Source of the DNA: Prosthecobacter dejongeii
GTDB taxonomy: Bacteria; Verrucomicrobiota; Verrucomicrobiia; Verrucomicrobiales; Verrucomicrobiaceae
Direction: 5' to 3'
Assembly (NCBI RefSeq): GCF_014203045.1
Contig: NZ_JACHIF010000002.1
Span: 248,001-312,000 of the forward strand
DNA length: 64,000 nucleotides
Part shown: positions 44,169-62,731 of the stretch, piece by piece
Layout: each line of letters starts with the position of its first letter
Numbering within the stretch: the first letter of the stretch is position 1
Notes under the pieces: model-generated
Database searches by the model: none
What the model was told of the DNA's origin: nothing
The model's input: only the letters and a program-made list of their open reading frames with translations
Translations under genes and position numbers: made by a program

Positions 44169-44966
44169 ATGAACACTCGCTACGATGTCGAAGGAATGTC
44201 CGTGGTCGTCATGGGCGGCACCACGGGGCTGGGGCTGTCCGCCGCGCAGGCTTTGGTGGCGAATGGGGCACACGTGGTCGTGACCAGTCGCAGCGAGGCC
44301 AATGTGCAGTCGGCCTTGCAGATCCTAGGCAGCGGGGCTTGTGGGTTCGCCGGAGATGCCAGCCAGCCTGAAACGGCAGAGAAAGCCGTGGCACTCGCTG
44401 TTGAGAATTTTGGGCGACTGGATGCCCTCTATCACGTGGCTGGAGGCAGTGGTCGCTCGCGTGGAGATGGGCCTCTGCATGAGATGACGGATGCAGGCCT
44501 GAGCTACACGCTGGATCTCAATCTCGCCTCCCTCATCCTGTCAAATCGCGCGGCGGTGCGCCAGTTTCTCCTCCAGGGTGGGGGAGGGTGCATACTCAAC
44601 ATGGGCAGCGTCCTCGGCTGGTCGCCCTCGCCCGAGTTTTTTGCCAGCCATGCCTATGCGGCGGCGAAGGCGGGCATCGTCGGTTTCAGCCAATCCATCG
44701 CCAGTTACTACGCCAAGCAAAACATCCGGGTGAACGTCATCGCACCCGCTTTGGTGGAGACTCCCATGTCCCAGCGGGCCGTGGGAAATGAGGCCATCGT
44801 CCGTTTTGTCGCGGCCAAACAGCCTCTGGATGGTGGGCGTGTGGGCAATCCGGAGGATGTAGAAGGGGCCGCCCTCTTCCTGCTATCACGAGCGGCAAAA
44901 TTCATCACTGGGCAGGTACTGGCTGTGGATGGTGGGTGGACAGTTTCGGAGGGGCGTGAAGCTTAG
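44169..44966 (+). CDS. Short-chain dehydrogenase/reductase
   Basis: A 265-residue classical SDR oxidoreductase. The cofactor loop TGxxxGxG is present as MGGTTGLGLS near residue 16, the NNAG-type motif is replaced by VAGGSG near 90, and the catalytic Ser and YxxxK are in MGSVLGW and YAAAKAG (about 160-166). The C-terminal GQVLAVDGGWTVS is typical. The substrate is unknown. It is the first of four closely spaced plus-strand genes (SDR-ROK-PaaK-like-TPR/redoxin). Confidence 0.85.
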   Translation: MNTRYDVEGMSVVVMGGTTGLGLSAAQALVANGAHVVVTSRSEANVQSALQILGSGACGFAGDASQPETAEKAVALAVENFGRLDALYHVAGGSGRSRGDGPLHEMTDAGLSYTLDLNLASLILSNRAAVRQFLLQGGGGCILNMGSVLGWSPSPEFFASHAYAAAKAGIVGFSQSIASYYAKQNIRVNVIAPALVETPMSQRAVGNEAIVRFVAAKQPLDGGRVGNPEDVEGAALFLLSRAAKFITGQVLAVDGGWTVSEGREA

Positions 44967-44973
44967 CCTAACC

Positions 44974-45882
44974 ATGAGTGCATCCACCAGCGAACTCGCC
45001 ATCGGCATTGACCTCGGCGGCACCAACATCAAGGCCGCGCTCATTGAAAGAGGTACGGGCAGGCAGATCACGCATCTTTCGCGACCCACGCGGGATGGTG
45101 AGTTCGTGGAGGGTGTGCCCCAGTTTGCCCTCACCGTGCGCAGCATCGTGGCGGAGTTGGAAACACTCGCAGGAGGGCAAAAGCTGCCCGTGGGGCTGTC
45201 CGCTCCTGGTTTGGCCCATCCTGAGGGGCACTGCATTCAGTGGATGCCAGGGCGGATGCACGGGCTGGAGAAACTGGACTGGTCCACCTTTTTAAATCGG
45301 CAGGTGAATGTGCTCAATGACGCGCAGGCCGCCTTGTTAGGTGAGGTCTGGGTGGGGGCGGCGCAGGGCTGCCGGGATGTTTTCATGGTCACGCTAGGCA
45401 CAGGCGTGGGCGGGGCTATTTACAGCGGTGGGCGTTTGCTGAAAGGGACCCTGGGCCGCGCTGGGCACCTGGGCCACATCACCACAGATCTCAATGCCCC
45501 GGTGGATCTCTTTGGCACGCCGGGTAGCCTGGAGGTGGCCATCGGTAACAAGACCCTGCAAGCGCGCGGAAAAGGACAGTATGCCACCACGCATGCGCTG
45601 CTGGCGGCCTGTGCTGCTGGGGATGCTGATGCGGAAAAAATCTGGCTGGAGTCCGTGCGTCATCTCGCCGCAGGTCTGGCCAGTCTCATCAATGTGGTGG
45701 ACCCTGAGCTCATCATTCTAGGCGGCGGCATCGCCACGGGGGCAGGGGAACGTCTCTTGGAGCCTCTGGCCGTGTTTTTGGATCAGTATGAATGGCGACC
45801 CGGGGGCCATCAGGTACGGCTCGTGCTGGCAGCACTCGGTGACGATGCCGGAGCCTACGGAGCCGTGCATAGTCTGGGGTGA
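44974..45882 (+). CDS. ROK-family kinase (glucokinase-like) lacking the zinc motif
   Basis: A 302-residue sugar kinase/regulator-fold protein. It opens AIGIDLGGTNIKAALIERG (phosphate-1 motif), has the conserved NDAQAALLGE, GTGVGGAIYSGG (phosphate-2) and LIILGGGIATGAG (adenosine) segments. The ROK zinc motif with three cysteines after the GH histidine is missing: LGHITTDLNAPVDLFGTPGS stands in its place without cysteine. It probably phosphorylates a hexose, but loss of the zinc site makes the substrate uncertain. There is no DNA-binding domain. The frame is open to 44929, but the ATG at 44974 lies 7 bp after the SDR gene. Confidence 0.8.
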   Translation: MSASTSELAIGIDLGGTNIKAALIERGTGRQITHLSRPTRDGEFVEGVPQFALTVRSIVAELETLAGGQKLPVGLSAPGLAHPEGHCIQWMPGRMHGLEKLDWSTFLNRQVNVLNDAQAALLGEVWVGAAQGCRDVFMVTLGTGVGGAIYSGGRLLKGTLGRAGHLGHITTDLNAPVDLFGTPGSLEVAIGNKTLQARGKGQYATTHALLAACAAGDADAEKIWLESVRHLAAGLASLINVVDPELIILGGGIATGAGERLLEPLAVFLDQYEWRPGGHQVRLVLAALGDDAGAYGAVHSLG

Positions 45883-45941
45883 TCTGCCGATACGAATGCA
45901 TCTCTGTTTGACCCATCCAGGCTGCTCGCCAACCCTTCACC

Positions 45942-47216
45942 GTGGCTGATGTGAGTTCCCCCATAGATCGTGACCGCCTGCGTTCCAACCAATGGCGCAA
46001 GCTGCGCTCCATTCTCGTCAGCGTGAATGGCGCGGGGGGATTTTACGCCAACAAGTTTCAAGCCGCCAAAGTGGTCGTCTCGTCCATGGATGGAGTGGAG
46101 GATTTTATCCAGCAGGTGCCTTTCACTCTGAAGGAGGAGCTGCTGGCAGATCGCTTGGCTCACCCGCCCTTCGGCACGCATTTGACTCAGCCGCTGGAGT
46201 CCTACACCCGCTTTTGCCAGACCAGCGGCACCAGCAGCGGCCAGCCTGTGGCCTGGCTGGACACGCCAGAAAGCTGGGAGGCCATGCTGAAATGCTGGCG
46301 TCACGTCTATGACGGCGCGGATCTGGCGGCAGGCAAAGACCGCATCTTCTTCGCTTTTTCGTTCGGGCCCTTCCTGGGTTTTTGGACCGCGTATGAGGCG
46401 GCCAATGGGCACTACCTCACCCTCCCCAGCGGCGGTCTTTCCAGCCAGGCGCGTCTGGAAATGATGGCCCGTTATGGGGCCACCGTCCTGTGCTGCACGC
46501 CCACGTATGCCCTGCGCCTGGGCGAGATGATCGGCGAGGCCAGTGGAGTCGAGCACCTGTCTCTGCGCGTGCAGAAAATCATCGTCGCTGGCGAGCCCGG
46601 TGGCAGCATCCCTGAGGTCCGTGCCCGCATTGAAAAACTGTGGAATGCCCGTGTGTATGATCACCATGGCATGACGGAGGTGGGCCCCGTGAGTTATGAA
46701 ACCACCGCCGTTCCGGGCCAGCTCGTGGTCATTGAAGAGGCCTATTTGGCCGAGGTGATTGATCCCGCCACCGGTCTGGAAGTGAACGAAGGCGAGTGTG
46801 GGGAACTGGTGCTCACCACGCTGGATCGCACTGCGGGGCCGCTGCTGCGCTACCGCACGGGGGACTGGGTGAAAAAACGCCTCTGGCAGGGCCGCTTAGC
46901 TCTGGAAGGCGGCGTTCTAAGCCGTGTAGATGACATGGTGGTGGTGCGGGGGGTGAACGTGTACCCCAGCGCGGTCGAGGCCGTGGTGCGGCAGTTTAGT
47001 GAGATCGTCGAATTCATGGTGGAACAGCGCAAGGTGGATGCCATGGACGAGATCGAGCTTCTCATCGAAGTGCCGGGCAATGTTTCCAAGGCCCTGATCA
47101 AACGGCTGGAGGCCAAGCTACGGGATACTTTCTCCATGCGCATCCCCGTGCGGCTGGTGGAGGCAGACAGCCTGCCGCGACATGAGTTCAAGGCCAAACG
47201 CTGGCGCAAGGTATGA
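45942..47216 (+). CDS. Phenylacetate-CoA ligase-like AMP-binding enzyme
   Basis: A 424-residue adenylate-forming enzyme of the PaaK-like group. The ATP-binding Thr/Ser/Gly-rich loop is TSGTSSGQPVAW near residue 95, YDHHGMTEVGPVSYE near 240 is the second motif, LRYRTGDWV near 305 is the third, and VRGVNVYPSAVEAVV near 330 is typical of PaaK. It should activate a carboxylic acid as an acyl-adenylate, perhaps to an acyl-CoA. It starts with GTG and ends in a 4-bp overlap with the next gene. No phenylacetate catabolism genes are nearby. Confidence 0.8.
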   Translation: MADVSSPIDRDRLRSNQWRKLRSILVSVNGAGGFYANKFQAAKVVVSSMDGVEDFIQQVPFTLKEELLADRLAHPPFGTHLTQPLESYTRFCQTSGTSSGQPVAWLDTPESWEAMLKCWRHVYDGADLAAGKDRIFFAFSFGPFLGFWTAYEAANGHYLTLPSGGLSSQARLEMMARYGATVLCCTPTYALRLGEMIGEASGVEHLSLRVQKIIVAGEPGGSIPEVRARIEKLWNARVYDHHGMTEVGPVSYETTAVPGQLVVIEEAYLAEVIDPATGLEVNEGECGELVLTTLDRTAGPLLRYRTGDWVKKRLWQGRLALEGGVLSRVDDMVVVRGVNVYPSAVEAVVRQFSEIVEFMVEQRKVDAMDEIELLIEVPGNVSKALIKRLEAKLRDTFSMRIPVRLVEADSLPRHEFKAKRWRKV

Positions 47217-49507
47217 TTCAACACCGCATGGAAGGATTCGTGTGGGCTTGGCCGTTATGGATACCAGCCTGCATGCACCCGCGCCTTCCTTTGTTCCTTT
47301 CCTTCAGCTTGGCCCTGGCCTGTCCAGCGGCAGATCCCCTGCCTGGGCATTCGCAGCACGGGGAGGCCTTCAATGAGGGGCCACGACAGGCAGCGGTCTT
47401 GATGCCGGGCACGGGCAAGGTGGACTTTAAAATCTCCACCAAGAACGCTGAAGCGCAGAAGTTTTTCAATCAAGGCGTCGGCCAGCTTCATGGCTTTTGG
47501 TATTACGAGGCAGAGCGTTCCTTTCGACAGGTGGCGCTTTTGGATCAAGACTGCGCCATGGCCTACTGGGGCCTGACGATGGCCAACGTCAACAACGAGG
47601 CGCGGGCGAAGCAGTTCATCAAAAAAGCCACCGCGCTGAAGGAGAAGGCGACGGCGCGTGAGAAGCTATGGATCGCCACCCTGGAGACTTTTTACAAAGA
47701 GGACAAACGGGATAAAAAACAGCGCGCTTTGGATTTCATTCGCGACCTGGAAACCATCGTCCAGGAGCATGGCGATGACGTGGAGGCAAAGGCCTTCCTG
47801 GCCTGGAAAATCTGGCATGCCAAGGGTGATGCACCCCTCTCCAGTCCCATGGCGCTCAATGCCCTGTTGGATCAAGTTTTCGCCGCCAATCCAGAGCATC
47901 CCGCGCACCACTACCGCATCCACCTCTGGGATGGGCCCAAGCCTGGACAAGCCCTGAAATCCGCTGCGCAGAATGGCCAGATCGCCCCGGCCATCGCCCA
48001 CATGTGGCACATGTCTGGGCACACCTTTTCCAAGCTGAAACGTCCGGACGATGCGGCCTGGCAGCAGGAGGCCAGCACTCGCGTGGACCACGCCTACATG
48101 ATCCAAAACTGGATCCTGCCAGACCAGATCCACAACTACGCTCACAATGAAGAATGGCTGGTGCGCACCTACAATGAACTGGGTCGTGCCAAAGATGCCC
48201 TCGGCCTAGCCAAAAGTCTGATCAGCAATCCACGCCACCCCAAGTATAACAACCTGGGCAAAGGCAGCGCCAACTATGGTCCTCTCCGCCTCATTGATAC
48301 ACTGACAAAATGGGAACTGTGGGACGAGGTGCTGACGCTCACCGATGGCCCCCTTCTCAAAGCGGTGGACCACGACCCAATCGAAATCGCTCGCCTTGAG
48401 GCTCGTGCTCTGGCGTTTTATGACAAGGGGGATCTCAAATCTCTCGAAGCCGACATCACCCAGCTCCAAGAACTGAATCGCAAAGCCATCGCAAAAGCCA
48501 AGGTCGCAGCGGAGAAAGCCAAAGCGGACAAGGCCAAAGAAGCTGGCAAAGCCAAAGCAACGAAGGGGAACGAGGCCAAGCCTAAAACCCCTGAAGTCGT
48601 CACCAAGGAAAAACCCAATGAAGGCCCCGCTGTGAGCACCCTCAAGGAATTGCGGGCGCTGAAAGCCATCCTTTCGAAAAGCAAAGATGCCGCCAAAGTC
48701 TTGGACGCTGCCACCTCCATGCCGCCTGAGCGGGCTGCCTTTCTGTGGCTGACCTTAGGCGACAAAAAGAAGGCAGAGGAAGACATCAAAGAGTTTCCTC
48801 AAGACCTCGCAGGCTTTGCGGCGAAGGCGGAACTGCTAGCTGCGGTAGGCAAAAAAGACGAGGCCAAAAAAGCTCTCGAGCAGGCTGGCAAGCTCGCCTT
48901 TGCCATGGACCAGGACCTGCCTCTAGCTAAGCGCCTCACCTCCCTGGCCCCGACTCTAGGGATCAAAGATAACTGGCAGGCCACTGCCCCTGAGCGCAAA
49001 GACAGCGGCGTGCGCCCTGCGCTGGATACATTAGGCCCCATGCACTGGCAGCCTCCGGTGGGGCCGAAGTGGGAGGCGTTGACGCTGGAGGGCAAAACGG
49101 TGGCCAGTTCCTCTTTGGAGGGCAAACCACACCTCCTGCTTTTCTACCTCGGCAGTGCCTGCACGCACTGCATGACCCAGATCAATGCCTTCTCCAAAGT
49201 CTCTTCCGATTTCGAAAAAGCCGGCATTCAAATGGCGGCTATCACTCTGGAGCCCATGTCTCTGGCTGGACGCATCACGGAGCAGATGACCACGAAAAAG
49301 CTGCCGCCTTTCCCCATCTATTGCGACCCGAGCCTCGCCATGTTCAAGACCTTCAAAGCCTACGACGATTTTGAAGACGAGCCCCTGCACGCCGCCGTTT
49401 TGGTGGATGCCCAGGGGCGCCTGCGCTGGTGGGATGTGAGTTGGGAACCCTTCACCGATACCAAATTCCTGCTGGAGGAATCCCAACGTTTGTTAGGGCT
49501 GGAGTGA
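47213..49507 (+). CDS. Exported TPR protein with C-terminal redoxin domain
   Basis: A 764-residue protein. After an N-terminal hydrophobic export signal (about 10-40) comes a TPR-rich region (about 75-430; for example FFNQGVGQLHGFWYYEAERS and MAYWGLTMAN). Residues about 420-480 are a Lys/Ala/Glu-rich, probably coiled linker. The C-terminal ~150 residues form a thioredoxin/AhpC-like redoxin with a CxxC in GSACTHCMTQI and the cis-proline-side stretch FPIYCDPSLAMF. It is the last gene of the SDR-ROK-PaaK run, coupled to the ligase by an ATGA overlap. The function is unknown, perhaps a periplasmic thiol-linked process. Confidence 0.75.
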   Translation: MIQHRMEGFVWAWPLWIPACMHPRLPLFLSFSLALACPAADPLPGHSQHGEAFNEGPRQAAVLMPGTGKVDFKISTKNAEAQKFFNQGVGQLHGFWYYEAERSFRQVALLDQDCAMAYWGLTMANVNNEARAKQFIKKATALKEKATAREKLWIATLETFYKEDKRDKKQRALDFIRDLETIVQEHGDDVEAKAFLAWKIWHAKGDAPLSSPMALNALLDQVFAANPEHPAHHYRIHLWDGPKPGQALKSAAQNGQIAPAIAHMWHMSGHTFSKLKRPDDAAWQQEASTRVDHAYMIQNWILPDQIHNYAHNEEWLVRTYNELGRAKDALGLAKSLISNPRHPKYNNLGKGSANYGPLRLIDTLTKWELWDEVLTLTDGPLLKAVDHDPIEIARLEARALAFYDKGDLKSLEADITQLQELNRKAIAKAKVAAEKAKADKAKEAGKAKATKGNEAKPKTPEVVTKEKPNEGPAVSTLKELRALKAILSKSKDAAKVLDAATSMPPERAAFLWLTLGDKKKAEEDIKEFPQDLAGFAAKAELLAAVGKKDEAKKALEQAGKLAFAMDQDLPLAKRLTSLAPTLGIKDNWQATAPERKDSGVRPALDTLGPMHWQPPVGPKWEALTLEGKTVASSSLEGKPHLLLFYLGSACTHCMTQINAFSKVSSDFEKAGIQMAAITLEPMSLAGRITEQMTTKKLPPFPIYCDPSLAMFKTFKAYDDFEDEPLHAAVLVDAQGRLRWWDVSWEPFTDTKFLLEESQRLLGLE

Positions 49508-49690
49508 TCCAGGGCGCAGGCGTCTGCACGACCGATTCCTGTATTAATGTGCCCAGCTAGCTGCTGAGGTGGGCGCATGGCATGACCGATGCTTTGCTGG
49601 TTAGGCATCCCCCCAAACGTCTTGTGAAAAACCGGGTTCCCCCACGGCGGGAAGTCCACGGATGCGAGTCAAGGATGGGGGCATTCCGTT

Positions 49691-52600
49691 ATGAAATTCC
49701 CCGTGCACCCTGCCACCCACCTCTCTTCTGCGTGGATTCGGTCTTCCAGTGTGGCCCTTCTATTGCTCTGCCAAACCTACTTGGCACTGCCCCCTCGACT
49801 AGAAGCCCAGGTACTGACCTGGGATGCCGCCCCAGGAACTCCGGGTTTACAAAATGGCAACGGGACCTGGAATACCTCCGTGGCAAACTGGCTTGACTCT
49901 TTGAATGCCAATGTTTTGTGGGGGAATACGGGGCTGGAAACGGCCCAGTTCGGCAGCACCACGCCTGCGGCTGCCAATACCGTCACCATCGCCACCAACA
50001 TGAATTTGAAGGGCATGAATTTCCTGGCGCTGGGCACCGCCACCCCCGTCGCGGGCCAGCAATATGCCCTCAATGGTGCTGCGGCCAACACGGTGTTGAA
50101 CTTCGGCGATGGCGGCCTCATCCAGTTCGCGGACTTTTCCTCGGGTGGATCTCAGTTCGTGAGTTTTGGGACCAACCTCGCTTTCCAGGGTAGCAATCTG
50201 ACACTCCAGAAGAGTGGCGGCACGGCCACCCAGTTTGTGAACTTGAACATGCTCTCCAACCCGAATCTCACGGGCATGTTAACCATCGGCAGCTATGTCT
50301 ATGCAGGCATCGCAGCCCAGGCAACGATCTCGAATGTCAGTGGCATCACGATCCGTAACAATGGCACTCTGACGCTAGGCGGAACTGGCAATTATACCAT
50401 GCCCATCACCGCCTCCGGATTTGCCAATACTTACGCAGCCATTCGCGTGACAGGGAATGGGGTCACTCTTTCTGGTGGCATCACCATGACAGGCAGCACG
50501 GGTGTGCTCATGCACTCCACCAATACGGGCATGGTCATCAATGCCCCGATCACGGATGGTGGGTCGGGGTATGCCTTTCACCGTTTTACTCTAACCAAAA
50601 GTGATGGGACGGTGACGCTCAGTGCGGCGAATACTTACGGTGGAAATACCGTCCTGGGTCGCAACAGCTCTGGCTATACGGGGGGCATCACCGTGCTGGA
50701 CTACGCTGCTGCCACGGCTCCTCAGCAGGACATCCTTTACAATGGCCTGACCACCCCCGGCGGGCTGGATCTCCTGGGGAGCAACATCGGCAGCTCCGTG
50801 CTCATGCTGACAGGTAAAGCGGGCACCATCAACTCCCAGCGCCTAGGCAACATCAGCGTTCAGGGATTTCGTTCCTCCATTGAGCTCACCTCGGGCACAG
50901 GTGGGGAAATGAACCTCAGCTTTGGCACTTTGAGCCGGACGACTACGGGCACTGTTGCCTTCACCGCACCAGCCTCGGGCAGCATCACCACCAGCATGGC
51001 AGATACGGTTTTAGGTCCATGGGCCACTTATAGATCGGGCGTGGGTCTAGGAACCTGGGCGCAGGTTTCTGGCGGTGTTTTGACAAATTTCAGTGGTGCC
51101 ACACCGGCGGTAACGGCCGTGCCTGTCACCAGCGATGCCACGTCACATCTCAGGTTAGATAGCAGCTCCACCGGACCCCTGAACCAGACGGGTGCGCTGG
51201 CAAACCTCGCCACACTTTCCATGGCGGATACCCAGGTGGATAGGACGGTCCTCACGGGGGCGGGAAATACTCTGCGCCTGGGCGTGGTGGGTGGCGTTCA
51301 AATCACCTCGAACGCGAAAAACCTCACCATCGGCCAGCTAGGCGTCGCCAGTTCCCTTTCTGCGGGTGGCGCTAGTGCTGGCACGGGGCAACTGTTCCTA
51401 ACCAATCATTCGAATAGCTCCCTGCTCACCATTCACTCAGGGATCACGAATAATGCTGGCGGGGGTGCTGTGACCCTCTTGGTCAATGGCTCTGCTGGTG
51501 CCACGACCCTTCTGACGGGTGCCAGCAGTCATACAGGTGGCACGGTGGTCGCCAGCGGTGCATTGGAACTGCGAAATGGAGCTGCTCTCGGCACCACGGG
51601 CGGCACCATCAATGTGATCGAAGGGGGCTCTTTACGCTTCTCCAATGGCATCACCTTCAGCCGCCCGCTCACGCTTTCAGGGCTGGGGACCAGCACCACG
51701 GTGGATGGTGTCCTTCGCAATGTCAGTGGGAATAACACTCTGACAGGGCTGATGACTCTAGTGGGAAATTCCACGTTCACTTCCGATGCCGGTCTGCTGA
51801 CTATCCAGTCTGCTACCCCAGCGACCAATGCCATCACAGGCACGGTGAATTTAAATCTTGGCGGGCGTGGGGACATGGCCATCCATGGCCGCATCGGCAT
51901 CGGCACCGGGCTGCTGACCAAGACTGGCAATGGCAGCCTAACTTTGGGTGGGGATAATAATTTCACGGGCGTTCTCACCATCAGCGCCGGGGTGCTGCGG
52001 CCCACTCATGCCAATGCCCTCGGTGTTTCAGGCAGCACCTTTGGCTCCACCGTGATCAGTGCGGGCGCAGCCATGGAACTGGCAGGGGGCATCACTTTAG
52101 CTGCCGAGCCCATCTCCATCTCCAGTCTCGGGGTGGCGAACAATGGCGGCATCCGCAATGTCAGTGGAAACAACACCCTCACGGCGCTCATCACTCTGGG
52201 CGGTGTCACCACCATCCGCATCCAGTCAGACAGTGGCAAACTTATTTTTGATGCGCCCACTGGAGCTGCCATCACACAAACTGCCACGACGGCCCGCGTG
52301 CTGGTGCTGGCTGGAGCTGGCAATATGGATGTGCTGGACCCCATCACCCGCACGAGCACAGGCGCATTGACGATTGTGAAAGAGGGCAACGGCACCGTCA
52401 TGCTGGCATCCTCTGTCGGAAACACCATCACCACGCTGAATGGTGGGGCTTTGCACCTGGACTTCAGTGCGGCCACCAGCCCCACTACGAACATCCTGCA
52501 CAGTGGCATCGCGACGCCCAATGAACTCAACCTCAATAGCGGTACCCTGCTCATCACAGGCAAGAGTGGCGCTAGCAACAGCCAAGCTTTTGGCCCGGTG

Positions 52601-54268
52601 GTGCCTACGGGCGTGAATACCGCGCATGGGGGGTCCAGCTACATCACCGTGGCGCAGAATGGGGCCACTCGGGTAGATCTCTCCTTTGGCAGTTTCACTC
52701 GTGGCGTCGGTGGCATCGTGGGTATCACTCGACCTGCCACGGGCAGCCTCACGACGACGGGTGGCGCGGACAATGCCATTTTTACTTCCTCTCTCGGCGC
52801 GCCTTACCTTTGGTCACTCGATGCCGCTGCTGGAGATGAATGGTTAGGCTCCACGGCCATCAGTGGCGGTGTGAGGCAGATCGTCCCCCTCTCAGCCCTG
52901 CCTTCTGGGGGCTACACTCCTTCCACCGCTACCGCATTGGTGGGCAATGCCAACATCACATTGGGAGAAGGCACGACTACCTTGGGAGCGAACACCACCA
53001 TCACCAGCCTGCGCTTTGGCCAGGCCCAGGCGACCACCGTCACCCAGGATGTGAGCGGACGCGTTTTGACTGTCGGCGGCATCCTAGTTTCCAGCACGGT
53101 GGGAAACTTCACCCAGACGATTTCCACCAGCACGCTGAAGTCGCCGGATGCCGGGGCCAACAATGATTTGCCCATCATTCAAAACAACACTGCTGCACCT
53201 CTGGTGATCAATTCCGCCATCATCAATGCCACCGGTTTCGGCACCACGGTGACCAAAGGTGGGCTTGGCACTCTGGTGATGCGCGGTGCCAGCACCTACA
53301 CGGGCAGCACCCGTGTGCATGAAGGCATCCTGCATCTGCAAGCTGGGTCCATCAGCTCCAATACGGAGTTCCTGCTGGGTTCGGGCGAGCGCAGTGGCAA
53401 GATCATCCTCGGCATCGGCAGCACGGCTTATAATACCACGGTGGACTGGTTACAGGTCATGGGCACAGGCACAGATAACCGCATCGTCGGCGGGGCCAGT
53501 GTCATCTCCACGCTGATGGTGGATAACGTCACGTCTAACAACAACTTCCGCGCGGGTTTCCTCGGCGGACCAGCCGAGAACGAGAACAATCTCTCCCTCT
53601 CCGTGAACGATGTCGCCACTGTCAGCACCGCCACGGTGCCGACGACGATGTTCCTGCCCCTGGGGCCTGCGAACACTTATGCCGGCCAGACCCTCATCCG
53701 CAATGCCACGGTGGAAGCCTCGGTGCTGGCGAATCAAGGCACTGCCAGTTCTCTGGGCACCGGTGCCAGCAATGGAGTCATCGAGATGGCCAGTGGCGGC
53801 AACAGCACGGTTCTTCATATCATCGGGGCGCTGCGTTACGTGGGCAGTGTGGATGCCAGCACAGATCGGCCCATTCAGATCGCCAACTCCGTGAGCACAG
53901 TGCAGACCCTTTTGGCGGTGCTGGAAAACAATGGCGTCGGCAGCGTGAAGTTCACCGCACCCTTCACCTCCACAGGTACCAATCTCACTGCCACACGCAC
54001 CCTGCGTCTTACCGGAACCAACTTGGGAGCGAATGAAATCGTTAGCGTGGGGAACAACGGCAGTGTCGGCACCGTGCTGCAAAAGGCGGGCTTAGGCACC
54101 TGGATAATCACGGGCGACAGCACCCACAGTGGCGGCACACTGGTGGATGCGGGTGCGCTTTTAGTGAGTAACGCCACGGGCAGTGGTTCCGCCACAGGCA
54201 CAGGCAATGTCACCGTAGCTGCAGGGGCTACCTTGGGCGGCAGTGGCCAAAAACGCGAAAAAACTTGA
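49691..54268 (+). CDS. Autotransporter-associated beta-strand repeat protein, 3' end lost to prophage insertion
   Basis: A 1525-residue exported protein with a signal peptide (about residues 1-38) and a Gly/Thr/Asn/Ala-rich beta-helix body. PATR-type units are clear, for example LTKTGNGSLTLGGDNNFTG and VTKGGLGTLVMRGASTYTG and QKAGLGTWIITGDSTHSGG. Such surface proteins normally end with an SGTIxG-type segment plus a sorting or autotransporter domain. Here the reading breaks directly after ATLGGSG and ends QKREKT, within sequence belonging to the adjacent prophage end. The C-terminal domain is therefore missing from this side of the insertion. Native sequence ends near 54248. Confidence 0.85.
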   Translation: MKFPVHPATHLSSAWIRSSSVALLLLCQTYLALPPRLEAQVLTWDAAPGTPGLQNGNGTWNTSVANWLDSLNANVLWGNTGLETAQFGSTTPAAANTVTIATNMNLKGMNFLALGTATPVAGQQYALNGAAANTVLNFGDGGLIQFADFSSGGSQFVSFGTNLAFQGSNLTLQKSGGTATQFVNLNMLSNPNLTGMLTIGSYVYAGIAAQATISNVSGITIRNNGTLTLGGTGNYTMPITASGFANTYAAIRVTGNGVTLSGGITMTGSTGVLMHSTNTGMVINAPITDGGSGYAFHRFTLTKSDGTVTLSAANTYGGNTVLGRNSSGYTGGITVLDYAAATAPQQDILYNGLTTPGGLDLLGSNIGSSVLMLTGKAGTINSQRLGNISVQGFRSSIELTSGTGGEMNLSFGTLSRTTTGTVAFTAPASGSITTSMADTVLGPWATYRSGVGLGTWAQVSGGVLTNFSGATPAVTAVPVTSDATSHLRLDSSSTGPLNQTGALANLATLSMADTQVDRTVLTGAGNTLRLGVVGGVQITSNAKNLTIGQLGVASSLSAGGASAGTGQLFLTNHSNSSLLTIHSGITNNAGGGAVTLLVNGSAGATTLLTGASSHTGGTVVASGALELRNGAALGTTGGTINVIEGGSLRFSNGITFSRPLTLSGLGTSTTVDGVLRNVSGNNTLTGLMTLVGNSTFTSDAGLLTIQSATPATNAITGTVNLNLGGRGDMAIHGRIGIGTGLLTKTGNGSLTLGGDNNFTGVLTISAGVLRPTHANALGVSGSTFGSTVISAGAAMELAGGITLAAEPISISSLGVANNGGIRNVSGNNTLTALITLGGVTTIRIQSDSGKLIFDAPTGAAITQTATTARVLVLAGAGNMDVLDPITRTSTGALTIVKEGNGTVMLASSVGNTITTLNGGALHLDFSAATSPTTNILHSGIATPNELNLNSGTLLITGKSGASNSQAFGPVVPTGVNTAHGGSSYITVAQNGATRVDLSFGSFTRGVGGIVGITRPATGSLTTTGGADNAIFTSSLGAPYLWSLDAAAGDEWLGSTAISGGVRQIVPLSALPSGGYTPSTATALVGNANITLGEGTTTLGANTTITSLRFGQAQATTVTQDVSGRVLTVGGILVSSTVGNFTQTISTSTLKSPDAGANNDLPIIQNNTAAPLVINSAIINATGFGTTVTKGGLGTLVMRGASTYTGSTRVHEGILHLQAGSISSNTEFLLGSGERSGKIILGIGSTAYNTTVDWLQVMGTGTDNRIVGGASVISTLMVDNVTSNNNFRAGFLGGPAENENNLSLSVNDVATVSTATVPTTMFLPLGPANTYAGQTLIRNATVEASVLANQGTASSLGTGASNGVIEMASGGNSTVLHIIGALRYVGSVDASTDRPIQIANSVSTVQTLLAVLENNGVGSVKFTAPFTSTGTNLTATRTLRLTGTNLGANEIVSVGNNGSVGTVLQKAGLGTWIITGDSTHSGGTLVDAGALLVSNATGSGSATGTGNVTVAAGATLGGSGQKREKT

Positions 54269-54340
54269 TACACAAAATTAAAATTCGCGAAAAGGGTCCA
54301 ATTTAAAAACCCAGCAAAAAGCCAAAAGGGTCAAGGGTTT
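54250..54340 (-). repeat. Prophage end with three spaced copies of a transposase-site-like motif
   Basis: Three direct repeats read on the plus strand: ACGCGAAAAAACTT at 54253, TTCGCGAAAAGGGTCC at 54284, and AAGCCAAAAGGGTCAA at 54319. The motif starts are 32 and 34 bp apart, about three helical turns. Mu-like phages carry comparable multi-copy transposase-binding sites at their ends. This 60-bp non-coding stretch lies between the broken host gene and the portal stop codon. The exact terminal bases cannot be fixed from one end; a TG at 54244-54245 could be the terminal dinucleotide. Confidence 0.55.
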
Positions 54341-55947
54341 CGGGCGGTGGCTGAGCCAGTGGCGGCATAGGCGGTGAGAGCGTTCTCTAAAATCGGCTGG
54401 AGCTTGGCGGGGGTCAGGCTGGCGAAGTGGACGTGGAGGCGGTGCTCCAGATCGTCGGCGCTGGTGCTGGCGGCAATGAGATCCTTGACCGCTGCATAGC
54501 GACCCTGGAACGCTGCGGCCAGGCGAGGGGCTCCGTTCTTGGCAATCTTGTCGAGCTGAGCATTGGTCGGCTGGCCGAGGCGCTCCAGGATGGCGACGGC
54601 GTTGTCGGTATGCGTGAGAGCCGAGAGCGCAGCCAGGCTCAGCGGTGGACCTGGCACGGCGGGAGCGGCGGAGCGCTGGAATGGCAGGCCGCCAGACTTA
54701 TTGAGGATCTCGATGCCCTCATCCGTCAGCTCAAGGCCTGCTTTGGCGGCCACCTCCAGGAGCTTGGTCTTGCCTTCCAGATCCTTGGCACTGTCCACGG
54801 CCACTTGGAGCACCGCCCGGCCCTTGATGCCGTTGAGGCGGCAAAAGGGTGCGATGATCTGAGAGTTGACCGTCGCAGCCAGGATGGTGAGATCCCAGGC
54901 CTCAATGTCACCACGGGCATTCTCTTGCACTTCAGCCTGAGCACCGCCACCGAGGCCGGAGGCCTGAGCCGTGACCGTCATGGTCTGGCCCAAGATCAGC
55001 TTGGACAGCTCGGCGTTGGCGAACTCCTGGAAAACCTTGAAAGCCTCCCCGTGTGAAGTGGTGGCCACGCTCTTGACCTCGATCTGAGTATCTTGGCTGA
55101 CCACCAGGCCAAAGAGCCGACTCGCCAAGCTGAAGGCCTGCGTAAGCGTGCCTTTGCTCTTTTTGTCATTCGGGTCGTATTTGGCGACCAAAAAGGGTGC
55201 TCCAAAACGGTCAAGGAAGCGGACCCACCAGTCACGGTCTTGGGTGGCAAACAACCACCAGAACAACACAGCGCGCAACGGGCCGCCCCAATGGTCAGGG
55301 ATGTCCGTCAGAAGGTGGCCACGATGGATGATGTGACGGATGGGCTGAGGTGCTTTTTTGGTGGCCAGGCGATGGCCCGTCGTTTGATCGGCATCCCAGA
55401 TCCTGAGGACACCGTCTGTCCAATCCAGAAGGTGATAAGGCACCACATGCCAGCCAGAGGGCACGTAGCGCAGGCCCGTGCTGGCGGCAGCGGGGGCATA
55501 GACCTGCTCTAAGACGGCCAGCGGATAAAGATGGCCATTGAGCAGGTGATTCATGGCCGTGCCTGTCCAGCCAGGCACATCGGTGAGGATCTGGCAGCGC
55601 TCAGCGGCCTGCACGTCATCGGCGTTTTTGGAGTCTCGCGGAACGATGGTCAGAGCCTTGGTCAAGACCGCCAGCTTGCGCTGATTGATGACCGTTTGGG
55701 TGTGGGCATGGCCGAGGCGAATGTCGCGATAGATGGCAAAGAGATCTCGGCAGTCGCCCGCCTCGGCCTGGCGCAAGGCAGCATGCACCCGGTCGGTGCT
55801 CATGGTGTGGGCGACGGCAGGCGGCTCGCCAAGACTGACGCCGACTGTGTTGGGCGAGGTCGGAGGGATGATCTCAGAAACAAAGGCCTCATCCACCTCA
55901 TCGGATGGAGAGCGTAGCCTTTGGAGAATGGCAGGGGAAAGATTCAT
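54331..55947 (-). CDS. Phage portal protein, DUF935 (Mu gp29-like)
   Basis: A protein of about 538 residues from the ATG at 55947. It forms the dodecameric channel at the capsid vertex through which DNA is packaged. The DUF935 hallmark WWLFATQDRDWWVRFLDRFGAP and the following FLVAKYDPND stretch are present at about 230-260, and the helical stem region GLGGGAQAEVQENARGDIEA follows at about 345-365. The C-terminus is complete. It follows the nuclease half of the terminase by 7 bp and is the last gene before the element's end, which is unusual because in Mu-like phages head genes follow the portal. Confidence 0.88.
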   Translation of the reverse strand: MNLSPAILQRLRSPSDEVDEAFVSEIIPPTSPNTVGVSLGEPPAVAHTMSTDRVHAALRQAEAGDCRDLFAIYRDIRLGHAHTQTVINQRKLAVLTKALTIVPRDSKNADDVQAAERCQILTDVPGWTGTAMNHLLNGHLYPLAVLEQVYAPAAASTGLRYVPSGWHVVPYHLLDWTDGVLRIWDADQTTGHRLATKKAPQPIRHIIHRGHLLTDIPDHWGGPLRAVLFWWLFATQDRDWWVRFLDRFGAPFLVAKYDPNDKKSKGTLTQAFSLASRLFGLVVSQDTQIEVKSVATTSHGEAFKVFQEFANAELSKLILGQTMTVTAQASGLGGGAQAEVQENARGDIEAWDLTILAATVNSQIIAPFCRLNGIKGRAVLQVAVDSAKDLEGKTKLLEVAAKAGLELTDEGIEILNKSGGLPFQRSAAPAVPGPPLSLAALSALTHTDNAVAILERLGQPTNAQLDKIAKNGAPRLAAAFQGRYAAVKDLIAASTSADDLEHRLHVHFASLTPAKLQPILENALTAYAATGSATARNP

Positions 55948-55954
55948 AAAAGGG

Positions 55955-56659
55955 TCAGCAAGAAAGGGGGTCGAAAGTGTAAAAATCCGCGTCCTCATCC
56001 TCGGAGGTGCGGTGGAAAGGATCTAACCGCTGGCCAGATCCAGAGACCGCAGCGGCAGCGGCCTCAACCGCGCCCGAGGACATGAGAGCCCAACGGGCCA
56101 GCTTGCCGGAGTCGAAGGTGTCGCCATGCTTGCCGCCTTTGCCCGTGAGGGTGACAAAGAGGCCTTTGGATTTTTGGACGAGTCGGCGGTCCTCTTTGAT
56201 GAAGGGGCCTTCAGGGGTGCATATCAGGCCATCCGTGTGAGCATTGACATACAGGTTGCCGAGCAGCTCCTTGGATCTCAGCGTTTGGCCCTGGAAAGTG
56301 ATGTTTTCCCCACCCTTGATGAGGTGAAAGGGGCAATGCTCGCGCAGGCCTTTGGCCAGGGATTGCGCAAAGAAGACTTCGTTGCTGGCATCCAGGCAGC
56401 AGGCTTGAATCCTCAGGCCAAAGACACTGGAAAGATCCTCCAACGCGGTGGTGAGCATGGCGCGGGCGACTGCCTCATCTCGCGTCTTCCAGGAGATGAC
56501 CAGGCGCTCATAAAGCCGCCCATCGGTGGCTTGAGTCACCGTGATGCTGGCCGGGTTGCTATTGGGGCCATCGCTCGTCGCGATGTCCATGCCGACCCCG
56601 ACCGGGCCTTCCTTCAGGAAGTCCAGCCAGGAGCGAGGAATGGCGTCTCTGACGGTCAT
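55955..56659 (-). CDS. Large terminase, nuclease half (Mu gp28-like)
   Basis: A 234-residue protein matching the C-terminal RNase-H-like nuclease domain of large terminases: first acidic site in PVGVGMDIATSDG, second in CCLDASNE, third in GKHGDTFDSGKLARW. Its start codon overlaps the stop of the ATPase-half ORF by 4 bp (ATGA), so the two halves are probably translated by coupling. Together (311 + 234 residues) they equal one normal Mu gp28-type TerL. No canonical X-XXY-YYZ slippery site was found at the junction, although a short T-run lies just before it. Confidence 0.82.
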   Translation of the reverse strand: MTVRDAIPRSWLDFLKEGPVGVGMDIATSDGPNSNPASITVTQATDGRLYERLVISWKTRDEAVARAMLTTALEDLSSVFGLRIQACCLDASNEVFFAQSLAKGLREHCPFHLIKGGENITFQGQTLRSKELLGNLYVNAHTDGLICTPEGPFIKEDRRLVQKSKGLFVTLTGKGGKHGDTFDSGKLARWALMSSGAVEAAAAAVSGSGQRLDPFHRTSEDEDADFYTFDPLSC

Positions 56660-57591
56660 ACAAAAAGGGTATCTGTGATCTCAACGGCCAGGCCTTGATT
56701 GCGGCCCCGTTGCTGCGCGGCGATGAGGTCTTGCAGCCCCAGGGCCGCAGAGCCGCCCGCGATGAATTGCAGGAGGTAGTTTCGGCGAAAGCTCTCTTTA
56801 TCAATGGCCTCGCTCATCGCCTCTTCGATGGTCAGCTTTTTGCCCGCCGTCTTCAGCGAGTAAAGCGGGACATTAGCGAGGATGCCGTCATTGGCGTCGC
56901 AGCGATGCACGGGGAAGCCCTCGGTGCCATCCTCAGTGTTAGTCTGGTACCAGTTGCCACGGGCATTCGCTGGCCAGGCATCCCGCTGAGGTTGTAGGAT
57001 CTCAAACGTGGGGTGGGTGTCATCGGCAGGTGGCGAAGAGGCCAGCCACATGATCCAATCAGGACGGCGGGAGATGATGGGCTCAATGGCGTCCATCGTG
57101 GCTTTGAAGTCCGGCCAAAAGCACACCTCATCCCCCAGCACATCGCCAGAGAAACCACGGGCCGTGGCCGGGTTGGGGCTGAGCACACGGGTGCGGCTGT
57201 AACTGGTCTGACTGTGCCAGATGGTGCATTCCAACTTGGCGTGTTGGAAGAGATCCGCGATGGCATCCACATCCAGGGTATTGCCCTTGTCATCATCGGC
57301 AATGCTTGTGAGGTGCAGGCCAGCGGCGCGGGCGGCGATGCGCTGCGCGTCAATGAGCTTGCGCCAAAGGATAGCCTCCTTTTCGATCAGCTCCCCACCC
57401 ATGAGGATGGAGCCCGATACAAAGCAGGCCATGTGGTCGGCACGCTCCATGCAGCGGTCGAGCGCCTTGCCGCCAAAAAGGAAGGACTTGCCGAGCTGGC
57501 GACGCCAGAGCATCCACAGCATGCGGTGCGTGCTCCAAAACACCTCCTCTTGAGGCGGCGTGAATTTGATGATGGGCTCAGGCATGCTCAT
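56656..57591 (-). CDS. Large terminase, ATPase half (Mu gp28-like)
   Basis: A 311-residue protein corresponding to the packaging ATPase domain. A modified Walker A is in WRRQLGKSFLFG near residue 31, as in gp28-type terminases which lack the full GxxxxGKT. The Walker B/catalytic region is in DVLGDEVCFWPDF near 150, with a later coupling-like MWLASSPP motif. It overlaps the DUF3486 gene by 4 bp upstream and the nuclease ORF by 4 bp downstream. The ORF ends where the nuclease ORF begins, so TerL is encoded in two pieces. Confidence 0.85.
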   Translation of the reverse strand: MSMPEPIIKFTPPQEEVFWSTHRMLWMLWRRQLGKSFLFGGKALDRCMERADHMACFVSGSILMGGELIEKEAILWRKLIDAQRIAARAAGLHLTSIADDDKGNTLDVDAIADLFQHAKLECTIWHSQTSYSRTRVLSPNPATARGFSGDVLGDEVCFWPDFKATMDAIEPIISRRPDWIMWLASSPPADDTHPTFEILQPQRDAWPANARGNWYQTNTEDGTEGFPVHRCDANDGILANVPLYSLKTAGKKLTIEEAMSEAIDKESFRRNYLLQFIAGGSAALGLQDLIAAQQRGRNQGLAVEITDTLFV

Positions 57592-58277
57592 GGCGGCCCC
57601 TCCTGACGCTCAGGCCTACGCCCAAAGAGATGCAGGCGGAGTTGATCCATTTTGATGTCTTTATGCACGCCGCTCTCGGCGATCTCGCGGGCCTTTTTGT
57701 CATCCAGATGTTTGAGGAAGGCCTCCACAAATTGGATCTGGAATTTATCCTCAGCCAAAGCCAGCTCGCGGTCTTTTTGCTCCAGCTTTTTGAGGTTGAG
57801 CTGGTGGGTCAGCGTGTCCAGCTCGCGAGAGCGGGCCGCCACCAGGATCTTGTTGATGGCCACCAGGGCCTTGGGGTCTATCTCGCCCCCAGCCTTGCGC
57901 ACGGCGGTGATTTCCTCCATCAGCTCCATCACCTCTCCCGTGACTTGAGCCAATGCTCCTTCACTGAGATTGCCACCGCTGGCTTTGGCTAGCTCTAACG
58001 AGTAGCGCGCCCGGTCGCGTGTGGCCTCGATCTCATCCCGCTGGGAAAGCCAAACCTGATAACCTCCCATGCGCCAGGCGCTGAGGTTTTGGGGCGTGAT
58101 GAGTTCGCCCTCGAAGTGGGTTTCACAAGCCTTGATGACTTCCGGCAGGGCATTGAGCCAAGGCAGGATCTGCCCCGCTGTCTCACCGTCATGGATGCGA
58201 CGGCACACGGCCTCGCGCAGCTTCGCGGGGAGGCGGGCCAGCTTGCCCTTGGGAGTCTTGGGGAGAGGGTCAGACAT
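57588..58277 (-). CDS. Small terminase subunit, DUF3486 (Mu gp27-like)
   Basis: A 229-residue helical protein of the DUF3486 family: an N-terminal helix-turn-helix region (KLREAVCRRIHDGETAGQIL, then LITPQNLSAWRMGGYQVWLS) for DNA recognition, then a long helical/coiled-coil segment. It lies immediately before the TerL ATPase ORF with a 4-bp overlap, as in Mu-like phages. It should recognise phage DNA and start packaging. Confidence 0.85.
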   Translation of the reverse strand: MSDPLPKTPKGKLARLPAKLREAVCRRIHDGETAGQILPWLNALPEVIKACETHFEGELITPQNLSAWRMGGYQVWLSQRDEIEATRDRARYSLELAKASGGNLSEGALAQVTGEVMELMEEITAVRKAGGEIDPKALVAINKILVAARSRELDTLTHQLNLKKLEQKDRELALAEDKFQIQFVEAFLKHLDDKKAREIAESGVHKDIKMDQLRLHLFGRRPERQEGPP

Positions 58278-58282: not shown

Positions 58283-58870
58283 TCAGTTGGGAAAGGTCAG
58301 TCGCTGGACGTTGAGGCCGTTACGCTGCATCTGGGCGCGTGCGGCAGCCAACGTAAGACCGAAAGGGGTCTGAAAGTGCGGACCTTCAGGGAAGCTTTTC
58401 CAGGTGCCTGCCCACTCCACATTCATGGAGGCTGCAAGCTGACCCAGCTCAGCATAGAGTTGCCGAGCCAGTTTTGGATTCTTCTCATCCAGATATATCC
58501 CGCCCTTAAACAGCCCCAGATCAATGGCCAACCCATAATTGTGCCAGGAGGAACCGGGTCGCGCATTGGTCACGACCTTACCCGGCTTGGTACGACCCTG
58601 GGCATACAGCGCGGCTTGCTGTGGCCAGGAGCGCAGACCTGAGATGACCTCCACCATCACACCTCTCTTGGCCATAGCCTTCTGAGCTGCTGCAACAAAG
58701 CCTTCCAGCTTCACCTGGGCACGGTCATTAAGGCCGGAAAGGTTTTCGAGAGTACGTTTGGAAAAACCGACTGGCGCGGCAGCTTCAGTGACAGCCTTGC
58801 GTCCAATCAGCCCAAAGAACCAAGTTAAAAAGGGTGTCACGTCGAAGGTAAGATTGAGGTTGGTTTTCAT
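58283..58870 (-). CDS. Endolysin, peptidase M15-like
   Basis: A 195-residue peptidoglycan peptidase of the M15/VanY type (L-alanyl-D-glutamate or D-Ala-D-Ala carboxypeptidase). The zinc site is visible: GLRSWPQQAALYAQGR with SWHNYGLAIDLG supply the H-x6-D pair, and EGPHFQ the third histidine. The N-terminal ~30 residues contain a hydrophobic segment (FLTWFFGLIG) that may act as an anchor. The ATG at 58870 is chosen; an extended frame upstream has unsuitable composition. It lies 5 bp before the small terminase gene, in the lysis block. Confidence 0.85.
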   Translation of the reverse strand: MKTNLNLTFDVTPFLTWFFGLIGRKAVTEAAAPVGFSKRTLENLSGLNDRAQVKLEGFVAAAQKAMAKRGVMVEVISGLRSWPQQAALYAQGRTKPGKVVTNARPGSSWHNYGLAIDLGLFKGGIYLDEKNPKLARQLYAELGQLAASMNVEWAGTWKSFPEGPHFQTPFGLTLAAARAQMQRNGLNVQRLTFPN

Positions 58871-58874
58871 GGGG

Positions 58875-58964
58875 TCAGTCGAGACGCCGACCGAGCCCCC
58901 ACCAGAGCCAGAGCAGGAACGCGAAAGCGATCCAGGCACACCAGCTTGGCGGGAGTCCGTCCAT
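58875..58964 (-). CDS. 29-residue hydrophobic peptide in the lysis block
   Basis: A short ORF from an ATG at 58964 to a TGA at 58875. It encodes a peptide that is almost entirely a membrane helix (CAWIAFAFLLWLWWGLGRR), followed by basic residues and a final aspartate. It starts 3 bp after the stop of the holin-like gene and ends 4 bp before the endolysin start. An AAGGACC sequence upstream could serve as its ribosome-binding site. It may be a holin partner or lysis regulator; the length limits confidence. Confidence 0.5.
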   Translation of the reverse strand: MDGLPPSWCAWIAFAFLLWLWWGLGRRLD

Positions 58965-58967
58965 GGT

Positions 58968-59153
58968 TTATTGCGGTCCTTTCGGGCCGTTGGCCTTGAT
59001 GTAGCCGAGGATGAGAACAATCAGGGAACCCGCCATGCCTGCCCAGCCATAGGCCGTGAGAGAGAGAGCCGTCGCTGCGGTTGAGGCCGCGCCGACGCCG
59101 ATGGAAGTCCAGAAAAAGGCGGGGGTGACGCCAGGCTTGAGATTCAATTTCAT
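58968..59153 (-). CDS. Holin-like small membrane protein
   Basis: A 61-residue protein with two predicted membrane helices (about residues 10-32 and 36-52) and a charged C-terminus (YIKANGPKGPQ). Its position between a lipoprotein and the endolysin suggests that it forms the membrane lesion in lysis. Holins lack conserved sequence, so the assignment rests on topology and context. Confidence 0.6.
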   Translation of the reverse strand: MKLNLKPGVTPAFFWTSIGVGAASTAATALSLTAYGWAGMAGSLIVLILGYIKANGPKGPQ

Positions 59154-61238: not shown

Positions 61239-62729
61239 TCAGAAAGTGTTGAGGCGTTGCAGCTCGTTAAGGATGGCATCCAGGCGCACCAGCGATTGCT
61301 GCACGTCCTGAGGGCTACTGCTCTGCATGCCTGCGTCTGCAAAGGGTTGGGCGATGCCAGGCGCAGCGGCATTGGCTAGGCGAGTGAAGAGATCTTCAGA
61401 GACGGACACATCGGGCAGGGCTTCCGCGCCGCCCGTCATGCCTTGGTTGAATGCGCGCCCGCGACTGACGAGGCCATCCAATATGTCCCTCATGCCCTCA
61501 TTGAGCAATGCCTTGGCGGGATCAAAACCGCTCTTTAACTGCACCGAATCGGCACGGAGCTCTTCCCGGCCAGCTCCCTTTTCAAGATTTGAAGCCGTGC
61601 CGCTTAAGGTATCAGCGGCCGCCGTGAATGCTCCAAAATCCATCCAGGTTTCGTCGCCCATTGCTCGGAGCACATCCGCCATGCCATTGGCCATGTCACT
61701 AGCGAAGTGCAGCACGATAGCCCCGAGCTTCGCATCGAGCATCTGCAAGGCGGGGAGGAGGGCCGTAAGCAATGCCATTCCCAACTCTGGCATACCATCC
61801 GCAATGGCCCCAAACGGGATTTTAATCAACTCATCCACAGTCCCCAACAAGTCGCCAAAGCTGCTAGTGAGGGCATCCACCCCGCCTGCCCCCTCATTGA
61901 TTTGCAAGATGAACTCGCGGAAAGAAGAAATGACCTCGGCCACTTGCCCGCCAACTGCCGCAAAGACGGGCTCAATGATGCCGCCCAGGCTGGTGAGGTC
62001 ATCCATGATGGGCTTGAGAGCCTCGTTGATCGGTGCGGCAAAGGCGACCTGGAGAGATGACCAGGCATCGCTCAGGGTGCTGAGCTTACCCGCAAAGGTC
62101 TCGCTCTGACGGGACATGCTGGCGAAGTACGCACCCCCATTGCCTGTCATGCGGCCCAGGATGTTCTCGAAGTCTTTGGCCGACACCGCGCCTTTAGTCA
62201 GGGCATCGCCCACCTCATTGACATTGATGCCTTTGAACTTGGCGATCTCTTCGCGCAGCCCAGCAACACCGCGTTCAGCGAGCTGGAGAAACTCCTCAGT
62301 CGCCAACGTGCCTTTGCCGCGAATCTGATTGAAGATGCTGACCAGGCCGCCGAGATCCGTGTCCGCACCACTGGCGACATCGCCCAGCATCTTGATCTGT
62401 TTGCCCAGATCCTTCGCCGCCGTGCCAGCCCCCAAAAGAGCACGGGCAGCGGGGGCCAGGTCGGACATCTCAAAGGGAGTCTCAGCGCCGATGCGCTTCA
62501 ACTCCGACATCACATCTTTGGTTAGATTGGCATCCTTCAGGATGGTGCCGATGGCGGTCTCTACCGACTCCATGGACGCCGCCTTTTCAAAGGAGCTGGC
62601 CATCACACGGGCCGCCCGATTGACCAGGTTAATGGCCAGATCCAGACTGCCCAGGACGCCGATGGCACTGCTCACCGTCCCGGCAAAGCCGGAGCTGTCG
62701 AGGCCAAGGGTGTAAGAGAGATCAGGCAC
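61239..62729 (-). CDS. Phage tail tape measure protein
   Basis: A protein of about 496 residues, short for a tape measure. It begins VPDLSYTLGLDSSGF and contains the typical conserved segment of lambda-type tape measures: a helical region followed by KRIGAETPFEMSDLAPAAR, then QLAERGVAGLREEIAKF and GAVSAKDFENIL. The rest is helical with hydrophobic blocks. The GTG at 62729 directly follows the stop of the preceding gene and matches the conserved start; the ATG at 62774 would overlap that gene by 43 bp. Its short length implies a short tail, or a missing part. Confidence 0.82.
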   Translation of the reverse strand: MPDLSYTLGLDSSGFAGTVSSAIGVLGSLDLAINLVNRAARVMASSFEKAASMESVETAIGTILKDANLTKDVMSELKRIGAETPFEMSDLAPAARALLGAGTAAKDLGKQIKMLGDVASGADTDLGGLVSIFNQIRGKGTLATEEFLQLAERGVAGLREEIAKFKGINVNEVGDALTKGAVSAKDFENILGRMTGNGGAYFASMSRQSETFAGKLSTLSDAWSSLQVAFAAPINEALKPIMDDLTSLGGIIEPVFAAVGGQVAEVISSFREFILQINEGAGGVDALTSSFGDLLGTVDELIKIPFGAIADGMPELGMALLTALLPALQMLDAKLGAIVLHFASDMANGMADVLRAMGDETWMDFGAFTAAADTLSGTASNLEKGAGREELRADSVQLKSGFDPAKALLNEGMRDILDGLVSRGRAFNQGMTGGAEALPDVSVSEDLFTRLANAAAPGIAQPFADAGMQSSSPQDVQQSLVRLDAILNELQRLNTF

Positions 62730-62731
62730 GG

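Follow-up and report, generated by a model that had tools for sequence, protein, structure and literature searches.

A long gene for a repeat-rich surface protein in Prosthecobacter dejongeii ends abruptly at the edge of a block of phage genes, and this raises the question of whether a transposable phage broke it and, if so, what became of the rest of the gene and what kind of phage was responsible. A sequence-only reading of the window, that is, the whole 64,000-nucleotide stretch analysed (positions 248001 to 312000 of contig C2 in a 6.0-Mb genome of 22 contigs, here G000), had proposed such an event, and we extended the sequence to C2 362000. Prophage coordinates are given in window numbering run past 64000; positions in the sequence pieces L005 and L006 equal these minus 54000 and 74000, respectively. 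The truncated frame, 49691 to 54268, encodes 1,525 amino acids ending in ...ATLGGSGQKREKT and a stop. This repeat protein has a signal-like N-terminus and matches repeat families of the autotransporter or beta-strand type (PATR, E 2.6e-16; TIGR02601, E 9.4e-20); homology of the broken gene to a relative of the same genus, G033, ends at 54246 to 54248. As originally read, the protein stays in host sequence through ATLGGSG, after which prophage-derived codons add QKREKT and a stop. The gene had also been called giant, a word that does not suit it: at about 1.7 kilocodons it is outsized by a frame of the same genome that stays open for more than 5,000 codons (L007 4960 to 19998, running off the edge of the sequence examined), which would encode a truly giant protein. 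The junction has the following features.

49691 to 54246, plus strand: 5' part of the PATR-repeat PEP-CTERM gene, 1,518 whole codons and 2 bases, identified by its repeat families and a continuous G033 orthologue
54243 to 54246, no strand: left copy of the 4-bp target duplication GTGG, the right copy being at C2 335012 to 335015 (L006 13012 to 13015)
54247 to 54268, plus strand: prophage bases that, by frame reading, complete the last Gly codon and add QKREKT and a stop
54247 to 54272, no strand: left terminal inverted repeat of 26 bp, 19 bases of which match the other end (C2 334986 to 335011)
54247 to 64000, no strand: left 9.75 kb of the 32,765-bp prophage, the remainder extending to C2 335011 (L006 13011)

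The missing 3' part had been predicted to lie past position 64000 beside the opposite prophage end, and it was present there: directly past the right end (C2 335012), an orphan 3' frame of the same repeat family occupies C2 335016 to 335541 (L006 13016 to 13541) and ends in ...VPEPSRVIFLVFGAMSLLSRRRR and a stop. The closest match to its tail (84%) is part of a G033 frame that runs without interruption for 1,716 codons. A final repeat and a sorting or membrane domain had been expected in the lost part; the orphan frame does carry a PEP-CTERM sorting tail, matched by model TIGR02595 at 17.7 bits, just above the cut-off of 16 (E 0.0048), and the tail of the G033 orthologue, VPEPSRAIFLVFGGLALFTRRRR, is also of PEP-CTERM type. 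The genome encodes two exosortases (PF09721, both above cut-off). Both marks of a PEP-CTERM surface protein were therefore found, the C-terminal tail in the uninterrupted gene and an exosortase in the same genome. With its signal-like N-terminus, beta-strand repeats, VPEPS-hydrophobic-RRRR tail and exosortases in the genome, the system resembles the PEP-CTERM/exosortase proteins of Verrucomicrobia, and it differs from them in that the tail has here been severed by a prophage. Nor did homologues point to a natural end at ATLGGSG: the best 15 matches to the tail, the query itself set aside, lie in stop-free open frames of 755 to 1,772 codons. Genome-wide the tail had 15 matches, that is, 14 besides the orphan tail itself. 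About 3.6 kb past the broken gene lies a second, apparently intact PEP-CTERM repeat gene of 1,266 codons stop to stop (L006 17119 to L007 916).

A close relative without the element had been named as the comparison to make, and G033 has the intact gene at the same place. Its continuous 1,716-codon frame is collinear with both flanks; contig C12 of G033 matched window positions 44087 to 54248 at 88.0% over 10,166 columns and the sequence from C2 335012 onward at 85.5% over 2,586 columns, the two matches overlapping by six bases. Chance can be ruled out because both flanks, 10.2 and 2.6 kb long, match a single unbroken region of G033. When the insert and one repeat copy were deleted in silico, an uninterrupted 1,693-codon frame resulted (ATLGGSGRILAGADRN), with the identical reading in G033. 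The longest word common to both joints, TGGGCG, was rejected as the duplication since it breaks the reading frame. Another conceivable source of such a junction is an assembly error joining phage and host DNA; one assembly was examined, and the IMG/VR record of this prophage (L058) may derive from the same one. Both flanks are nevertheless collinear with G033, with an exact duplication and inverted repeats at the joints, and because a misjoin would not make an exact duplication and inverted repeats, we rejected this explanation and regard its probability as negligible. As the halves of the gene flank the element and join in frame, and the empty site exists in G033, the proposal that a transposable prophage broke the gene holds. 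We conclude with high confidence that a prophage of 32,765 bp (C2 302247 to 335011) transposed into a PEP-CTERM beta-strand-repeat gene. Insertional inactivation by Mu-like phages is textbook knowledge, and for a transposable phage such a disruption is nothing unusual.

The two parts of the gene agree with G033 at 1,412 of 1,517 amino acids (5' part) and 147 of 174 (3' part). The corresponding dN/dS values were 0.054 and 0.127, with 0.066 for the last 177 codons of the 5' part; they suggest mild relaxation at most after a recent insertion, or natural variability of the tail, for which this comparison has no control. The insertion is probably recent because the 3' fragment remains open throughout and under constraint relative to G033. 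Exosortase anchoring, like D-D-E transposition, is a generally known mechanism. The 1,519 N-terminal residues, the last codon of which is finished by a phage base, should together with the six phage-encoded residues still be makeable and exportable. Lacking the last part of its repeats and the tail that exosortase recognises, the protein would be released or degraded and not anchored, and the 3' fragment is probably silent. That the truncated protein with its new C-terminus still functions, so that the insertion is neutral or useful, strikes us as rather unlikely; most of the repeat region is kept and the 14 other tail matches in the genome make redundancy likely, but the protein has lost the sorting tail that presumably anchored it.

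The inserted element encodes a Mu/TnsB-type transposase (recognised by profile and fold), a MuB-like AAA ATPase, Gam, a Mu-type portal, gpF, a gpG-like protein and gpT. A total of 46 prophage frames were called, 30 of which were scanned against PHROGs; those assigned are listed here from left to right.

54331 to 55998, minus strand: Mu-type portal, 84 bp from the phage end (PF06074, E 3.5e-60; phrog_113)
55955 to 56659, minus strand: probable nuclease half of the large terminase, a separate gene (matches the C-terminal half of the fused terminase in G016, G060, G063 and G066; no family match of its own in the Pfam and PHROGs scans)
56656 to 57591, minus strand: ATPase half of the large terminase (phrog_2, PF03237)
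57588 to 58277, minus strand: candidate small terminase, from position and conservation beside TerL in relatives (no family match in the Pfam and PHROGs scans)
58283 to 59020, minus strand: M15-type endolysin (PF13539, phrog_2649)
61239 to 62774, minus strand: tail tape measure protein (PF20155, phrog_9959)
64058 to 67279, left arm, leftward: tail protein
67977 to 68396, left arm, leftward: head-tail adaptor-like gene (weak match, E 4e-4)
69087 to 70016, left arm, leftward: gpT capsid (PF10124, above cut-off)
70573 to 71646, left arm, leftward: head protease
72426 to 73379, left arm, minus strand: S24 repressor
75311 to 77275, right arm, plus strand: transposase
77791 to 78816, right arm, plus strand: MuB-like ATPase (phrog_296; similarity to MuB, E 3e-6)
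80130 to 80705, right arm, rightward: Gam
84623 to 86194, right arm, rightward: gpF (PF04233, above cut-off)
86378 to 86857, right arm, rightward: gpG-like gene, 154 bp from the phage end

The window had been read as containing a block whose first genes are a Mu-type portal and terminase; the portal and terminase were borne out, but "first" was wrong, as the portal is the last gene of a leftward arm. With the repressor on the minus strand and the transposition genes on the plus strand, the element has the two-arm layout of B3. Here and in G061 and G062 two genes make up the large terminase, one for the ATPase and one for a putative nuclease; it was a single frame in G016, G060, G063 and G066 (seven elements tested). 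Between the terminase halves of G061 lies a 409-codon frame that by eye resembles a DNA cytosine methyltransferase. Another prophage gene, L006 6811 to 7335, matched a PHROG labelled cysteine dioxygenase (phrog_4786, E 1.2e-29).

The termini of the G000 prophage were fixed by comparison with a related prophage in G034 that has the same ends and transposase pieces 80 to 88% identical. The right end of the G034 element matches that of G000 to ...AAATCGTGTCTTC and then diverges, and its left end matches from GCCAAAAAC. In each of G033 C6, G000 C7 and G068 C2 the two G034 flanks map to one neighbourhood, equally oriented and separated by less than about 0.5 kb. They therefore very probably border a single insertion, but the alignment at that empty site is not exact to the base. 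When the ends were taken symmetrically, both elements showed an exact 4-bp direct repeat, GTGG in G000 and CACG in G034, with the fifth base mismatched in each; the short target duplication that had been predicted is the GTGG flanking the G000 element. The 19 of 26 matches between its inverted repeats were reached in none of 20,000 single-base shuffles in the fixed, chosen register. G082 was scanned for end pairs with TTGA at the same offset; among 1,710 pairs two tied as best at 19/26, only one of which had a repeat, the four bases ATAG in the same register. In the TTGA-offset scan the own end pair of G000 ranked best of 440. Terminal dinucleotides were CC/CC in G000, CC/CT in G034, CG/CG in G082 and TG/TG in the G090 candidate. 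Candidate ends in G090 (GGCT), G016 (TTGG) and G192 (AAAG) fit the same register and are supportive only: they were picked partly by the 4-bp repeat and were absent from the stricter motif scan, and for G090 and G016 rival end pairs scored equal or higher, chance 4-bp repeats being common in such scans. End scans of G417 gave no termini that could be fixed, and a terminus-pattern search of IMG/VR found no stretch with the right end and only the same prophage with the left end.

Mu makes duplications of 5 bp and B3 of 6 bp (PMC8705779), and the scar described here would not be unusual if it were really of either length with one copy mutated. Homology between the right ends of G000 and G034 stops two bases before the boundary used, which would suit a 6-bp repeat with mismatches, and four-base matches at movable boundaries are frequent by chance, numbering hundreds among the pairs scanned. 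A 5-bp repeat, however, has the same fifth base mismatched in both well-fixed elements (GTGGC/GTGGG in G000, CACGC/CACGG in G034), and a 6-bp repeat needs three mismatches in 12 bases, whereas the 4-bp reading is exact in both, gives symmetrical inverted repeats, and is the one obtained in the same register from G082, where pairs were ranked by inverted-repeat match. We therefore consider the longer duplications unlikely and retain 4 bp. The RNase-H-fold transposase, with its target-selecting ATPase, would have made staggered cuts in the target, 4 bp apart, and linked the phage ends to the cut strands, and gap filling would then have produced the 4-bp duplication.

The G034 prophage target is unrelated in site and sequence to that of G000, a result that also bears on whether the prophage might act as a switch, its precise excision restoring the surface gene. 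The 3' fragment is indeed still open and in frame. Against a switch, the related prophage occupies a different target sequence at an unrelated site, the PHROGs scan of 30 of the 46 frames recognised no site-specific integrase, and the transposition genes are Mu-like; we judge a switch very improbable. Insertion by transposition at unrelated sites remains our preferred reading.

The transposase was recognised by profile-profile and fold comparison only, not by family libraries. Searches gave a sub-threshold HTH match in Pfam (E 0.019), a terminase-small-subunit match alone in PHROGs (E 0.013), no match in NCBIfam, a best E of 0.069 among PDB sequences, and no match in 50,697 deposited phage records. 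With hhalign, a profile of 15 relatives (A3) aligned to a five-row profile of Mu/B3-type transposases (A4) with a probability of 97% (E 1.1e-10); against single transposases the probabilities were 11% for Mu, 10% for B3, 9% for POA1180 and 2% for D3112. The AlphaFold2 model was of middling quality (mean pLDDT 70.0, pTM 0.56). In Foldseek, its best TnsB and MuA chains had E values of 3e-13 to 2e-12, and pairwise comparison gave Z 16.7 with TnsB 7svw_B (rmsd 3.7 over 264 residues), Z 16.6 with the MuA core 1bco (rmsd 4.7 over 257 residues), and Z 18.1 with TnsB 8rdu_R, where the rmsd was 13.9 over the whole chain.

In the hhalign alignment D208 stood opposite the first Asp of B3 (WQID), E281 opposite the second (GVPRILMMDPG against GLPYIWRIEKG), and E328 opposite the Glu (SVENA) that is presumably catalytic. 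D208, D209, D237, E281 and E328 were invariant in 26 of 26 rows, namely the 15 of A3 and 11 class-wide loci, some of them weak matches; L126 is apparently the same contig as L053, so that at most 25 rows are independent. Rows omitted were L068 (a fragment), G090 C16, G156 and the second G208 copy, the last three having no locus. The predicted structure places E281 at a strand end and E328 in a helix, as expected for an RNase-H fold. Asp286 was rejected as the second catalytic residue, being Asp in only 10 of 26 rows. We predict an Asp-Glu-Glu active site with E281 in place of the second catalytic Asp, to which D209 or D237 could also contribute.

The transposase was found in 5 of the 56 genomes of the relatives set (E <= 0.001) and in 13 of 384 genomes sampled across the class (11 of 171 genera; weakest matches E 4e-4), own genome included in both counts. 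Portal and gpF lay on opposite strands in all 11 elements showing both (G000, G016, G060, G061, G062, G063, G066, G082, G090, G192 and G417), and in the same 11 the portal was the outermost match to G000 prophage genes on its arm; non-matching DNA lies between portal and probable end in G016 and apparently in G192. Outside this count stand the fragmentary records G058, G059 and G064 and, with few matches, G032, G056/G103, G065 and G130, as well as G034, which is spread over contigs. The protease and capsid genes were on the repressor side in four elements (G000, G034, G058 and G059) and after gpF, on the transposase side, in 11 (G016, G060 to G064, G066, G082, G090, G192 and G417).

Compared with known systems, the element is like Mu in having a transposase with an AAA target-selector ATPase, Gam, and portal, gpF, gpG-like and gpT head genes of Mu type, and in using unrelated insertion sites with a short duplication (GTGG in the G000 gene, CACG in G034). 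In the broad sense it is Mu-like, with a DDE-fold transposase and AAA partner, Mu-type head proteins above cut-off (PF06074, PF04233, PF10124) and a short duplication at varied target sites; it departs from the exact D-D-E triad in that E281 aligns with the second Asp. It falls outside the Mu and B3 groups proper, since the repeat is exactly 4 bp in G000, G034 and G082, and longer only with mismatches, and the ends are not TG...CA. Unlike Mu, with its 5-bp duplication and ends that are always TG-CA, it makes a 4-bp duplication and ends in CC (CG in G082, TG in the G090 candidate), divides its head and tail genes between two opposite arms, and has Glu at the predicted second catalytic position of a transposase that family libraries miss. 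The best structural matches of the transposase model were to TnsB of Tn7 and type V-K CRISPR-associated transposons; unlike those, this element is a phage, and a PHROGs scan of 30 of its 46 frames recognised no Cas, TnsD or TniQ protein.

The study of Leptospira prophages (PMC8705779) states that, until the Leptospira TA group, TG-CA ends had been described as conserved throughout the Mu- and B3-like phages, so that non-TG ends are known in one Leptospira group; it also describes a separate TerS-TerL-portal block in the TG1 group. Two oppositely transcribed arms around the regulators are shared with the Leptospira prophages (PMC8705779) and, from its map, B3, and we rejected the idea that the two-arm layout is wholly new. 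According to the same study the B3 and Leptospira elements make 6-bp duplications, the Leptospira enzymes are assigned a D-D-E triad, and the Leptospira head and tail modules always have one orientation, unlike the 4-bp repeat, the predicted active site and the oppositely oriented portal and gpF found here. A degraded prophage region of Verrucomicrobia with two Mu-like proteins and a terminase is mentioned in PMC6920513, and Mu-like phage genes in this phylum are thus not new as such; in the open-access literature searched we found no description of the transposable-phage lineage.

We lean slightly towards a separate verrucomicrobiotal lineage of transposable phages, with an Asp-Glu-Glu RNase-H-fold transposase, a 4-bp stagger, no requirement for TG-CA, and portal and gpF on opposite outward-facing arms. 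What is worth following is a phage lineage with a 4-bp scar, variable terminal dinucleotides and a divergent transposase in which Glu takes the place predicted for the second catalytic residue. The locus itself is a clean natural case of insertion in Verrucomicrobia with the empty site known, and it leads to a transposase family absent from the family libraries searched. If the Glu-for-Asp enzyme is active and its stagger is 4 bp, it would be a natural test of active-site geometry against strand-transfer spacing in DDE recombinases, and the family could yield genetic tools, of which the phylum has few.

IMG/VR already contains the G000 prophage (IMGVR_UViG_2861697045_000002, L058), with imprecise borders: on the left the record takes in about 4.6 kb of host sequence, and on the right it stops at the gpG-like gene and misses the terminus. 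Two different prophages of the lineage, L062 and L063, are filed under one IMG genome number (2517572100), and double lysogens may exist.
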